A stretch of 64,000 nucleotides of DNA from NCBI GenBank assembly GCA_947630805.1, contig CANRIV010000010.1:17703-81702 (forward strand), given 5' to 3'. The notes below the pieces were generated by a model. The model made no database searches. It saw nothing but the letters and a program-made list of their open reading frames with translations, and was not told the origin of the DNA. Shown here in pieces: positions 12,571 to 61,161 of the stretch (its first letter is position 1; each line of letters begins with the position of its first letter). The DNA is from an uncultured Lachnospiraceae bacterium. Lineage in GTDB: Bacteria > Bacillota > Clostridia > Lachnospirales > Lachnospiraceae. The position numbers and the translations under genes were made by a program.

Positions 12571-15039
12571 CTAAAGTGACTGCTCTGCTGCTTCCAAAGT
12601 TTTATATCCCTGCAGATGTACAGTATTTTCTATGGTCATCTCCGCCAGATTTTTCCCTTCTCTTGCAAGTTCCACAATAAACCGTCCATACATTTCCAGC
12701 AAAGCATCCGAATACGTCAAAAGCTCACCTTTTAAATAAGTCTCATAGGATGTGTTATCCATTTCATCCGCATCTCTTGTAATATCCCGGGCATTGGACG
12801 CAAGTTTCGGATATTTCCGGGCGAATTCTTTCATCCACTGCACCTGTATTTCGGAAATCTGTTCTACGATGGCTTTGCTTTGCTCGGACTTTTCAGGAAA
12901 ATACTTCTGTATCTGTTCATACTCTTTGGGCGCTGTAAACTCCATCATTCTTCCATATTTTTCTGTAATCATGTTCCAGCCTTTCTTTTTATTTTCCTGC
13001 CATAAATCTCTTATGCAGCAAAGCATATCATTATTCCACGTCATATACTGGCTTTTCCTCATGATATAGAAAAACGGCCAGTCATTCTGACAATCTGCGC
13101 GTCCACCTTGATTCTGTACTTTATCAAACGCTTCAAATTCCAGTTTTATAATCTGTTCCATCACTTCATCCCGTTCAGACATATTCTGATTCTTCTTGGC
13201 CGCACAGGCATCCGCTTTTTTCATAATCTGCTCCACATAATCATTTAAAAAATTAGATTCGGTCTCTTTTATTATTTTCTGCCGGCCTAGCTCATGAATA
13301 ATTAACCGGGCCACAATCTCAATCGTCAGGACTTTTCTGTCCTTTTCATTCAAATTCGTATTACTGTAGCAATCATCTTTCCAAGCCGTCCTCTGGTCCG
13401 GCATATCTGCCATCGCTCTTAAAATATCTCCCACTTCAGGAAGAATTTCCAGTTTTTTCGTTCCTTCCAGCATCCATTTATAATATGGGGCATATTTTCT
13501 ATTGAGCAGAAACAGACATTTCATTGTGTGCTGCATAAACTCTGAGATACATATATAGGCAGTAACATAATCTTTTCTTGCCATTGCTCTTGCATAATTA
13601 CATTGTCCGGTCTGCGCCATCGCCGCAATTTCTCTTGCAAGTTTCACCATTCTCGCCGCCTCCGGCTGTTCGAAAAAACCTTTACGTATTTCGGAAAAAA
13701 TTTTTTCGTCATCCCGGAAAACTATACCATTGGTTACCGTGGCAAGCCGATAATCTTCCAACTCAATCCATTGCTCCAGTTCTCTTGGGCTTTGCCGTAA
13801 CCCTGTATATTTTTCATAAAAATCTCCTATGATCTGCACGCCGCATCTTCCCTGTGCCATTTTTGTATCAACTCTTGTAATTCCCTGATATTCTTTCGGA
13901 AGTTTTTCATATTCCTGCTGTAATTTATCACCAATCAGATGGTATGTGTCTTCTGTAATCCACATACAGAAGCCCGGTCCAAAATCATGATCCATGGAAT
14001 AACAGTCGTCAAACCCAAAGCGTTCTGAGCCTTCTCCTACAAATCCCACAGCAATTTTATTTTCATACTGCGGAAATTTTTCATGTATCATCGGCGCACC
14101 ATATTCTCTGTAAAAATCCTGCGCCAGCTGTATTCCGGATATCTTTGATTCTTTTTTTTGAACTTTTGAAGAAAAATCTATCGCACTATCTTTTTTATCA
14201 CACACTTTGCAGTCTGTATCTTTTATCTCTTTTCTCTCCGGATGAATTTTCAGTTTCTGATATACACTCTCCAGATTTTCTTTGGTAATCTGATAAGCAG
14301 TTCCTTTTCCCATATTAATTTCAATTTCTTTTAGTGCTTCCTCATATAACGGTACTGCTTTTTTATAATTTCCTTTTTTACACTGTGCCGCTGCCATCGC
14401 ACTAAGCGCCGCACTATAATGGAAATTTTTCACTTCATCTTTCCGGTAAATGGAAAGGGCTCTCTCAAGATATTCTAACGCTTCATCTACCCGGTCTAGT
14501 TCCAGAAGAGAGGCTGCCAAATTAGAACAGGAAACAGCTGTCTCAATCTCTGAATTTTCTATTTTTTCGATAATATTCAATGCTTTTTGCTGATACTGCG
14601 CCGCCTGATTAAAATCATTCATCTCCTGATAAACCAGCGCAATATTATTGTTCAGACTTGCAAACCTGTAATCATCCGGAGCAATATTTTTTGTATAAAT
14701 ATCACATGCTCTGTCATAGTATTCTAATGATTCCTGCAGCAGACCTGCAGCTCTATGCGCATTTGCAATGTTTTGAAGCGCTGTCGCATATTCCACAGTG
14801 CCTTCTATCCCCATTTCTTTCATTAGACGAATGCAGTCTCTGCACGCCTGAATAGATTTTTCATACTGGCTGGTATCTCTGAAAAATCCCATCATCTCAT
14901 TCAATATCGTAAACTGAGCAGGTTTATCCGCTTCTTTTAACGCCTGCTTCATACTACGATTTAAAAATGTCTCAACTTCAGAAATTCTTTTTTCCTCAAA
15001 TAATTTGTCCAACTGTGCAATAAATTGATTGATGTCCAT
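12571..15039 (-). CDS. TPR protein with DUF4037 nucleotidyltransferase-like and DUF4125 domains
   Basis: The 822-residue protein has three parts. Residues 1-265 are tetratricopeptide repeats, for example [28 protein letters not shown]. Residues about 300-500 match DUF4037 and contain [11 protein letters not shown] (335-345) followed by [10 protein letters not shown] (348-357), a layout like the G-S...D-x-D motif of nucleotidyltransferases. Residues about 620-800 match DUF4125 ([28 protein letters not shown]). No signal peptide is present, so it is cytoplasmic. The combination suggests a regulatory protein that modifies a target or small molecule with a nucleotide, but the substrate is unknown. 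Confidence 0.85.
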
Positions 15040-17564: not shown

Positions 17565-18419
17565 TTAAACGATTACTTTTTTTCTCGTCAGTTTTTGTGT
17601 TACTTTATTGAGATTTGTTACCAGAACATCTCCGGTAATCCTTAGTTTCTTTTCATCGTTTTGCTGATTTAAATATGATATGTAATGATAAATATATTCT
17701 AAATCGCTTATCCCGTTTGCAAAAACACCCTTTAATAGATAATAAGCCGTCTGATATCCCGTCTCTATCATTTTATGGATAGTATCCTGTTGAAATATTA
17801 CAGAGTCGGTAAGTAAATTTTTAATTGGAAACGTTATTTTTATAATCCTTTCATCAAAAAATGTATTTTCAAACTTGTAACAGCAATCATCAAAATAAAT
17901 ACATATAATATAGTCCAGCTTATGTTTTAAAAACGGATAAACGGGAATATTATCAATCAACGCCCCATCAAAATACTTTTTATCTTCAATTTTTACCGCA
18001 CGGTTATATATTGGCATTGCCACGCTGGCTTTTAAATATCTGGGTATCTGATTATGCGCAACTTTTCCTAAATCTTTATATACTACCTCTTTGTTATTCA
18101 TATGAAACAACGTCATATAGAAAAATTGGGAAATGATATCACTGGGCGCGTATAAACTTTCTATAGCATTTTGCAAAAAACTACTGCGGAGAATCTTACT
18201 GACAAACATACGATTATCATTATTACATACCTTTTTCCACATGTCCTCTGCTTTTTCAAGTTTATTTGCCGCAAAGGCATAAGCATTTAGAACACCTACA
18301 GATGAACTGCTGATATATTTGAAATTGTCATATGAAATATATTCACCAAGCGCCTTCAATGCACCTAACTGATATGCCCCTTTTGCCATCCCGCCTGACA
18401 GAACTAATCCTATCTCCAT
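17565..18419 (-). CDS. Patatin-like phospholipase family protein
   Basis: From the preferred start (MEIGLVLSGGMAKGAYQLGAL, with AGAGG upstream) the protein has 284 residues. The oxyanion-hole motif is SGGMAKG (8-14), the nucleophile is probably Ser40 in SSSSVGVLNA, and the catalytic Asp is D151 in the DGALIDNIP motif. The nucleophile elbow is S-x-S-x-G instead of the common G-x-S-x-G. The fold is that of bacterial patatins, which hydrolyse acyl esters of phospholipids or other lipids. There is no signal peptide. The track start (18467) is a TTG directly after a C9/G9 run without a ribosome binding site and is unlikely. It is followed by the 56-aa and 726-aa genes. Confidence 0.88.
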   Translation of the reverse strand: MEIGLVLSGGMAKGAYQLGALKALGEYISYDNFKYISSSSVGVLNAYAFAANKLEKAEDMWKKVCNNDNRMFVSKILRSSFLQNAIESLYAPSDIISQFFYMTLFHMNNKEVVYKDLGKVAHNQIPRYLKASVAMPIYNRAVKIEDKKYFDGALIDNIPVYPFLKHKLDYIICIYFDDCCYKFENTFFDERIIKITFPIKNLLTDSVIFQQDTIHKMIETGYQTAYYLLKGVFANGISDLEYIYHYISYLNQQNDEKKLRITGDVLVTNLNKVTQKLTRKKVIV

Positions 18420-18468
18420 TTTTTTAACCTCTGTATATATCAAAGCAAAAGAGGTAATCCTATACAAT

Positions 18469-18477
18469 GGGGGGGGG
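18469..18477. repeat. Homopolymeric G9 (C9 on minus) tract upstream of the patatin gene
   Basis: Nine consecutive G residues on the plus strand lie about 50 bases before the patatin start and about 41 bases after the TM2 gene stop. Runs of this length are prone to slippage. Here the tract lies in the untranslated gap unless the upstream TTG start is used. Sequencing error in the run length cannot be excluded. Confidence 0.8.
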
Positions 18478-50233: not shown

Positions 50234-50278
50234 AAAAATTAGCGGTTAGACCGAACTATTGTCTGACCGCTAATTTTT
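50234..50278. terminator. Terminator of the PAS-domain gene
   Basis: AAAAATTAGCGGT-TAGAC pairs with GTCT-GACCGCTAATTTTT. On minus it ends the PAS gene, whose stop codon overlaps the stem; it also separates that gene from the helicase promoter. Confidence 0.88.
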
Positions 50279-50660
50279 ATATTTTATTGAAATTTCCCGT
50301 TTCTCTGTTGCGAGACTCATGCTTTTCATAATATCCAATCAATTTTCCTTTCTCCCGCAGAGCTACCATATAAACATCTTTGTTTTGTTTTTCATTATAA
50401 AAAGTATAAACAATATTATGCTCTACAGAGGCAGCAAACCAATCTAATATCTGTTTTATTTTCGCCTGTGAATCCACATTATGACAATGTAGCAGATTCT
50501 GTCCAATCAGCTTCTTTCCACCTCGTTTTTCATAATTTTTTATTGCTGCCGGATTCATATATATAATTTCATGCTCCAAATTACAGATAACTATAGGATT
50601 TTGATCCTGATCAATAATACTTTGAAAAAAAGACTGTTGCTCTATTTTATTCTTTAACAT
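50277..50660 (-). CDS. Single-domain PAS protein
   Basis: The 127-residue protein is essentially one PAS domain (about 12-115): FFQSIIDQDQNPIVICNLEHEIIYMNPAA, LIGQNLLHCHNVDSQAKIKQIL, and the beta-strand end NKDVYMVALREKGKLIGYYEKHES. This LLHCHN form is a known PAS subtype in Firmicutes. There is no output domain, so it may pass a redox or ligand signal to a partner. An A-rich stretch precedes the ATG and no clear AGGAGG is seen. It is a single gene. Confidence 0.82.
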   Translation of the reverse strand: MLKNKIEQQSFFQSIIDQDQNPIVICNLEHEIIYMNPAAIKNYEKRGGKKLIGQNLLHCHNVDSQAKIKQILDWFAASVEHNIVYTFYNEKQNKDVYMVALREKGKLIGYYEKHESRNRETGNFNKI

Positions 50661-50775: not shown

Positions 50776-50803
50776 TTGATATTTTCACTTGACATGGTAT
50801 AAT
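50776..50803 (+). promoter_or_regulatory. Promoter of the glycosyltransferase gene
   Basis: TTGATA and TATAAT are separated by 16 bases, and TGG before the -10 gives an extended -10 element. The transcript would have a leader of about 118 bases. Confidence 0.7.
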
Positions 50804-50816
50804 TATATATTGTAAC

Positions 50817-50880
50817 TTTTGAAACGATACCGGATGACCGTTTCAAAACTTTGCTTCGCAAAGCACGCTCCTCATGGGGC
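50817..50880 (+). promoter_or_regulatory. Structured leader with three successive hairpins
   Basis: The leader folds as TTTTGAAACG/CGTTTCAAAA (10 perfect pairs, 12-base loop), then CTTTGC-TTC-GCAAAG, then GCTCC-TCAT-GGGGC. The last two hairpins form part of a repeat that recurs at 61118-61161. The leader has no T-tract, so it is not a simple terminator. It ends about 45 bases before the glycosyltransferase start. Confidence 0.6.
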
Positions 50881-50887
50881 CGGTTAA
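50848..50887 (+). repeat. Dispersed hairpin repeat, copy 1
   Basis: ACTTTGCTTCGCAAAGCACG followed by CTCCTCATGGGGCCGGTTAAA matches the copy at 61118-61161. The first half is identical. The differences in the second half keep the GCTCC/GGNGC stem (G-U here, A-U there). Confidence 0.75.
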
Positions 50888-50927
50888 ATACAATTTCGAA
50901 ATCTTAGATAAAATAACAGGAGTGAAC

Positions 50928-51964
50928 ATGTTAAAAAAAGTTATTATTGATGATGTCTCACCAAAACTGCGTAAAAAAGAATTTAATGCAGGACCAAAGG
51001 CAAGAAAAGACATCAACACCATATTAGAAGATTATAAAAAAGCATATTTTATTGAAACAAAAAATTTATTGTTGCAGGTAATGCACGGAATTTGGTTAAG
51101 TATTAAATACAGAAATTATGATATCATTGTAATTCAATATCCTTATTATCTTATCAAGCAGATTTATCTTAAAATGATTCATCGTTTATTTAAAAATAAA
51201 CAGACCATTTTGCTCATTCATGATATAGATACTTTAAGATATGGGTTAAACAAAGAACGAATTCAGGAAGAAATTGATGTTATCAATCATTTTAAGATTG
51301 TCATATCACATAACGAAAAAATGAGTCAGTGGCTAAAAGACAATGGATGTCAGAGTCCAATTATCAATATGGAGCTTTTTGATTATTTATGTGAAGATAA
51401 CAGTTCTACCCCCCCTCACACGAAAAAAGTGTTTGCAAGGATGAAATTTCTTTTGCAGGAAATCTTTCAAGAGAAAAAAGTTTATTTCTTTATAACGATT
51501 TCTGGAACAAAAGCCATCTCCGTCTGAAACTGTTTGGTCAGGGTTTGGGGGACAGCGACGAAACTTTATGGGAATATATGGGCAGTTATCCTCCTGACAT
51601 ATTACCTCAATATCTTAATCAGGGATTTGGATTAATATGGGATGGCAACAGCACAGAAAGTTGTGCGGGCGTTATTGGAAATTATCTGAAATATAACAAT
51701 CCACATAAATGTTCTTTATATCTGGCATCAGGAATTCCGGTCATTGTTTGGAAAAAAGCCGCTTTAGCCGATTTCATAAACAAACATAATGCAGGGATTC
51801 TTGTGGAATCCCTGGAAGAAATACCGGAAAAAATCCAAAATCTATCAGAAAAAGAATATATTCAAATGAAAAATAATGCAGAAAAAATATCTTTGAAGTT
51901 GAAAGACGGATACTTTCTTAAAAAGGCTATCCGGACCGCAGAAAAACTTTTGCTAAACAATTAA
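50928..51964 (+). pseudogene. Galactofuranosyltransferase-like glycosyltransferase, frameshifted at a C7 tract
   Basis: The start (MLKKVIIDDVSPKLRKKEFN) has AGGAG. The first frame runs to 51527 and reads as a GT-B N-terminal domain (YDIIVIQYPYYLIKQIYLKM, TILLIHDIDTLRYG). After CEDNSSTPP it loses similarity. The -1 frame then continues without a stop as SFAGNLSREKSLFLYNDF, HLRLKLFGQGLG and on into the track ORF 51545-51964 with FGLIWDGNSTESCAGVIGNYLKYNNPHK, the family C-terminal signature. The break lies at the C7 run 51409-51415; one extra C would restore a 345-codon reading frame. Related enzymes act on cell-surface glycans. It may be switched by slippage, be a pseudogene, or reflect a run-length sequencing error. 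Confidence 0.85.
51409..51415. repeat. C7 homopolymer at the glycosyltransferase frameshift
   Basis: Seven C residues lie exactly where the two frames must join. Length 8 (or 5) puts both halves in one frame; lengths 6 and 7 truncate the protein. Confidence 0.85.
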
Positions 51965-61082: not shown

Positions 61083-61117
61083 ACACAATACTCCTTTTTC
61101 ATTTTTCTTGTTTTCAA

Positions 61118-61161
61118 GACTTTGCTTCGCAAAGCACGCTCCTGACGGAGCTGGTCATTAA
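61118..61161. repeat. Dispersed hairpin repeat, copy 2
   Basis: GACTTTGCTTCGCAAAGCACG then CTCCTGACGGAGCTGGTCATTAAA matches copy 1 at 50848-50887. The stem CTTTGC/GCAAAG is identical and GCTCC/GGAGC is kept with a base change. It lies between two minus-strand genes, in the opposite orientation to their transcription. Confidence 0.75.

Follow-up and report, generated by a model that had tools for sequence, protein, structure and literature searches.

A glycosyltransferase gene split at a C7 tract in a Lachnospiraceae genome rich in intragenic poly-G tracts

Campylobacter, Helicobacter and Neisseria are the classical hosts of switches at intragenic G or C tracts; for gut anaerobes, the phase variation described so far consists mostly of DNA inversions. 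Meningococcal tracts are predominantly variable when they have a length of at least 8 (PMC5084427), and when prokaryote genomes were surveyed, poly-C or poly-G of 7-8 proved overrepresented in no more than 11 and 9 of them (PMC2831843). A recent review of phase variation treats clostridia only for the inversions and the c-di-GMP enzymes of C. difficile (PMC11868660). Our literature search, which covered few subscription papers, found no report of a slipped-strand tract repertoire in Lachnospiraceae; this absence is weak evidence of novelty.

Two described systems come close to what we report here. The poly-G/C contingency loci of Campylobacter (PMC8355987) and Helicobacter canadensis (PMC2823697) resemble the genome under study, hereafter G000, in having numerous G-tracts of length 7-9 or more within genes, mostly those for surface glycans, and in that genes in frame and genes split are mixed in one genome. 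They differ from G000, which is a member of the Lachnospiraceae with MutS, has tracts no longer than 9 and is known here from the tract lengths of one genome; moreover, the tract of the gene described below carries C on the sense strand and is only 7 long. In Bifidobacterium breve, a pair of intragenic G-tracts constitutes a replication-slippage switch of pili (PMC9187656). That system shares with ours the Gram-positive gut commensal, the intragenic tract by which a gene becomes two ORFs and the one-base change that restores it, whereas there the tracts are G10-G11, the genes encode pili and mixtures of lengths were measured; here, a C7 in a glycosyltransferase gene is read from sequence alone.

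One glycosyltransferase gene in two frames

The window, i.e., the whole 64,000-nt stretch of DNA analysed (G000:C10:17703-81702), belongs to a genome assembly of 1.84 Mb in 26 contigs that is 98.8% complete. Positions 50928-51964 of its forward strand hold one Gtf3-like (PRK09814-type) glycosyltransferase gene, the sole interruption of which is a frame change at a run of seven C. The component parts are as follows:

50928-51408, + strand: 5′ part with the N-terminal domain, from an ATG start; matches NF007326 positions 9-166 (E = 4.7e-20)
51409-51415, + strand: C7 tract, site of the frame change, placed by the sequence and by alignment with intact homologues; in a variable linker after a conserved FDYL
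51416-51964, + strand: 3′ part with the C-terminal domain, in the -1 frame; matches NF007326 positions 170-346 (E = 1.9e-60); stop codon at 51962-51964
51416-51527, + strand: out-of-frame tail and stop, as read from the ATG at 50928 past the tract (ORF list)

A sequence-only reading of this stretch had described a glycosyltransferase with halves in different frames, joined nowhere but at the C7, and so we found it: the two halves are consecutive in one family model (NF007326, 9-166 then 170-346 of 349), comprising both domains in order, and as in phase-variable genes of the simple-sequence-repeat kind, an intragenic homopolymer lies where the frame changes. The frame that starts at the ATG of 50928 is open across the C7 and stops at 51527 in unrelated sequence. 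The frame from 51416 runs for 182 codons without a stop up to 51962-51964 (chance about 3e-6, from base composition), which bears out the claim that the 3′ half has not decayed, and one base added at the tract does yield the predicted 345 codons. Coding capacity is thus kept on both sides of the C7, with no stops and gene-like codon use: in the expected frame, the codon-usage scores of the two sides are 0.166 and 0.158, the genes of the window having a mean of 0.228 (sd 0.065).

Homology confines the frame change to about 24 nt (51399-51422), with the C7 within. The probability that a random 24-nt stretch of the genome overlaps a C/G run of 7 or more is about 5e-4, there being 27 such runs in the genome; from this coincidence of the shift with a rare run, slippage at the homopolymer is well supported as the cause of the split.

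Scored apart, the 5′ and 3′ halves reach 72.0 and 204.8 bits with NF007326, under the curated cut-off of 420, and a profile search of the genome with that model yielded nothing above this cut-off. By sequence, the gene would therefore be related to NF007326 rather than a certified member. Its relatives of solved structure are Gtf3 glucosyltransferases (PDB 9hu9, 3qkw): the focal gene resembles these Gtf3/PRK09814-type enzymes across both halves, but it is split and stays below the curated cut-off. Homologues at E <= 1e-20 occur at 22 loci in 20 other genomes among 397 of the family. All 21 that span the junction are unbroken there, the remaining one (L122), a fragment at a contig edge, being left out. 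None of the aligned homologues has a C/G run of 6 or more at the junction. We searched 22 congeners for a copy of the gene, at the DNA and protein levels, as well as viral contigs and plasmids, and found none, so that the comparison of C-run lengths that had been suggested met no second allele. One named relative is from Faecalicatena faecalis (43%). G194, a genome of the family, yields a glycosyltransferase match equal to that record in identity, span and run positions (L116 and L014), by which the family is placed in Lachnospiraceae.

The gene stands isolated, its neighbours being a PAS-domain gene and a cyclophilin-like/Big_2 gene. The label of a surface glycan gene, given from the sequence, is thus a putative one that derives from the enzyme family. 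The adjoining lone PAS-domain protein (window 50277-50660; 127 aa) is found among the congeners only in G022 (77% identical), with which the locus has no flanks in common.

Poly-G tracts in the genome and its congeners

C/G runs were derived from counts of C6, C7, C8 and C9 windows, and each run was then read in its context. There are 19 runs of exactly 6 in G000, 5 of 7, 10 of 8 and 12 of 9; none is longer. The 22 runs of 8 or more compare with about one extrapolated from the number of six-base runs, and with a Markov expectation of 2.5-4.6 (orders 0, 2, 3 and 4), or up to 12 (orders 1 and 5). Runs of 8-9 are thus in large excess, while the five runs of exactly 7 compare with 3-4 expected from the six-base runs.

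The 27 runs of 7 or more consist of the focal tract, 23 others within ORFs or at their ends, and 3 intergenic ones. The sense strand carries G in 23 out of 23 of the other intragenic tracts; the focal tract, the sole one with sense-C, lacks the coding-strand G that marks the poly-G set, for which reason we do not file it as a typical member: the gene fits the set only partly.

Ten of the tracts (G7-G9) lie in one 22-kb surface-polysaccharide cluster (C3:90.6-112.9 kb; L049 and L050, G000:C3:88000-115000), in which the genes are flippase-like, GT2, polysaccharide pyruvyl transferase, acyltransferase, FrhB-like, AMP-binding and aldo/keto reductase genes. The state of each gene was judged from open frames and family matches, and a gene counted as split if family signal flanked the tract on either side or if a single domain was obviously shared. 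In at least 13 genes, the frame stays open across the tract and family signal surrounds it; L049:2687 was judged to be in frame. The tract splits at least four other genes; L049:18659, L056, L060:1938 and L060:2999, where the frame is ambiguous, are outside the split count. The split genes are:

L049:5621, G8: aldo/keto reductase; family signal on both sides
L049:12324, G8: GT2; family signal on both sides; the neighbouring paralogue at 14553 (G9) is in frame
L055, nine-base tract: acyltransferase; family signal on both sides
L048, G8: LTA-synthase/sulfatase-like gene

Of the runs of exactly 7, the four besides the focal one are in two AMP-binding genes, a pyruvyl transferase gene and an aldo/keto reductase gene, all of kinds that also carry longer tracts.

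Three congeners, G006, G022 and G012, share the excess of long runs, and most congeners do not: G010 has 141 C6 windows vs. 2 C8 windows, G004 129 vs. 3. Sixteen runs of 8-9 lie in a 50-kb stretch of contig C7 in G006 (L091-L093; G006:C7:9000-61000); every one of them is sense-G, and genes in frame are mixed with split ones. Tracts with sense-C, in frame, are present in G006 and G012 (L102, L104). In the LicD genes of G000, G006 and G022, the tract occurs within four codons of one place, in frame in one of them and apparently split in two, while in homologous acyltransferase and GT2 genes, the tracts are at different codons in different species. The idea that tract positions are conserved across species was rejected accordingly, the LicD tracts being merely nearby; since positions differ between species, the tracts were likely gained repeatedly rather than inherited. 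Loss of MutS behind the tract-rich genomes was likewise rejected, as MutS is intact in G000, G006, G022 and G012. Across the 397 family genomes, the number of C9 windows ranges from 0 to >100, so the trait is patchy, and it may be widespread in the family.

Several Lachnospiraceae genomes have >100 nine-C/G windows (G192, G194, G242, G414, G415), some strongly strand-uneven. Furthermore, a G9 in the window (18469-18477; sense C9) sits just upstream of a minus-strand patatin-like phospholipase gene (17565-18467), in its leader/promoter region, and is a candidate length-dependent expression switch of that gene.

By its anatomy, the tract set of G000 would be a poly-G phase-variation repertoire: G7-G9 tracts, mostly in surface-glycan genes, both in frame and split, make slipped-strand switching plausible in this organism. 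Some Lachnospiraceae species probably possess a Campylobacter-style repertoire of about two dozen switches at G7-G9 tracts within genes, with a concentration in a surface-polysaccharide cluster and in spite of intact MutS, by which the surface glycans of a Gram-positive commensal would vary combinatorially; the C7 gene would be an outlying member. If true, single genomes and MAGs misstate which surface-glycan genes are active in Lachnospiraceae, and these commensals can change their surface sugars as a form of bet-hedging, which would be likely to affect phage susceptibility and antibody recognition. The focal gene by itself is of modest interest, and its genome context is the larger result.

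Reversible switch or single slip

We consider it an even call that the focal locus is a phase-variable Gtf3/GT113-like glycosyltransferase gene in the OFF state. A slipped-strand event would have altered the length of the C tract and turned the gene OFF: translation from the ATG at 50928 would be out of frame from about codon 162 onwards, and the product, of 200 residues, would lack the C-terminal half of the enzyme. A further slip would regain the 345-residue enzyme, because nothing else is damaged, and cells within one population would differ in adding the sugar. The focal switch would work beside poly-G tracts that switch glycosyltransferase, acyltransferase, LicD, pyruvyl-transferase, aldo/keto reductase, AMP-binding and LTA-synthase-like genes. 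We observe the split, its place, the intactness of both halves and an excess of tracts across the genome, in genes both in frame and split; from these observations we infer the cell-to-cell variation of the C7 and its rate, as well as the glycan and its role.

Whether such switching is regular and reversible at this particular tract stands at about even chances. The proposal had been made from the gene itself. The split falls exactly at a homopolymer, and we find the genome rich in G7-G9 tracts, as slipped-strand switching would have it, but the tract is sense-C and of length 7, below the lengths that chiefly vary in meningococci. It is the only sense-C one amongst 24 intragenic tracts and lies outside the cluster, the gene is absent from the 22 congeners, no homologue has a tract at the junction, and intact MutS should lower slippage. 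In favour of a switch are the intact, consecutive halves, the unbroken homologues, the excess of 8-9 runs, which are intragenic, sense-G and concentrated in the surface-polysaccharide cluster, with split genes next to genes in frame, and the sharing of that excess by G006, G022 and G012. Runs of 7 are not foreign to the set either, given the four in typical tract genes; together with the in-frame sense-C tracts of G006 and G012, they soften the odd status of the focal tract.

Next after reversible switching ranks a one-off, recent inactivation, a tentative but serious possibility that we hold to be clearly the less probable: a C-run present by chance in a linker that tolerates change would have slipped once, leaving an incipient pseudogene, reversible in principle, with no selected switch. 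Length and sense strand do separate the C7 from the other 23 intragenic tracts, the homologues lack the tract at the junction and 3-4 runs of exactly 7 are expected by chance from the six-base runs. Yet the 3′ half is without any decay, the gene hit is a glycosyltransferase, the class where the tracts of this genome mostly sit, and tracts with sense-C do occur in frame in two congeners (L102, L104).

An error of assembly or sequencing, the true tract being in frame and the gene intact, is disfavoured and in our estimate improbable. Homopolymers are the usual site of such errors, but the assembly does not seem prone to them, with 16 out of 16 A/T runs of 8 or more in the window within intact ORFs; in addition, the frame is kept at no fewer than 13 of its other C/G tracts of 7-9. 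Programmed recoding, in which slippage of ribosome or RNA polymerase on the C7 would yield the full enzyme from the C7 gene, is very improbable: the zero frame, ACC CCC CCT, does offer a formally slippery heptamer, C CCC CCT, with the 3′ part of the gene in the -1 frame, but the downstream RNA structure is no better than chance (z -0.68), no homologue uses a frameshift at the junction, and C-rich -1 sites are generally poor slippery sites.

The upstream region

Two elements precede the gene:

50776-50803, + strand: promoter-like site of sigma-70 type, TTGATA-16-TATAAT, with TG before the second hexamer (consensus scan, 11/12)
50813-50901, + strand: truncated copy of a dispersed, multi-hairpin repeat of about 111 bp; about 43 genomic places match the window copy, with 74-90% identity

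A promoter and a structured leader had been claimed for the gene. The promoter match is there, just upstream of the repeat copy, and is weak evidence, because sigma-70-type sites are not in excess in the region (12 seen vs. 8.5 expected). The leader fared less well: it is a copy of the dispersed repeat, hence not evidence of a dedicated regulatory leader, and as a whole it does not fold clearly better than shuffled sequences (z -1.1). A known riboswitch was ruled out, since an Rfam scan of the window gave no family. The full repeat of about 111 bp has four stem-loops and is sometimes in tandem at 111-112 bp; the copy at the focal gene misses the last stem and is followed by a ribosome-binding site and then the ATG. 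The dispersed repeat says nothing for or against switching. Few matches to it occur in G007, G013 and G016, and most congeners have none. In G000, the repeat, which is REP/MITE-like, is also present at window 61112-61155 and at L130-L162 (e.g., L134:301-633 and L133:315-650).
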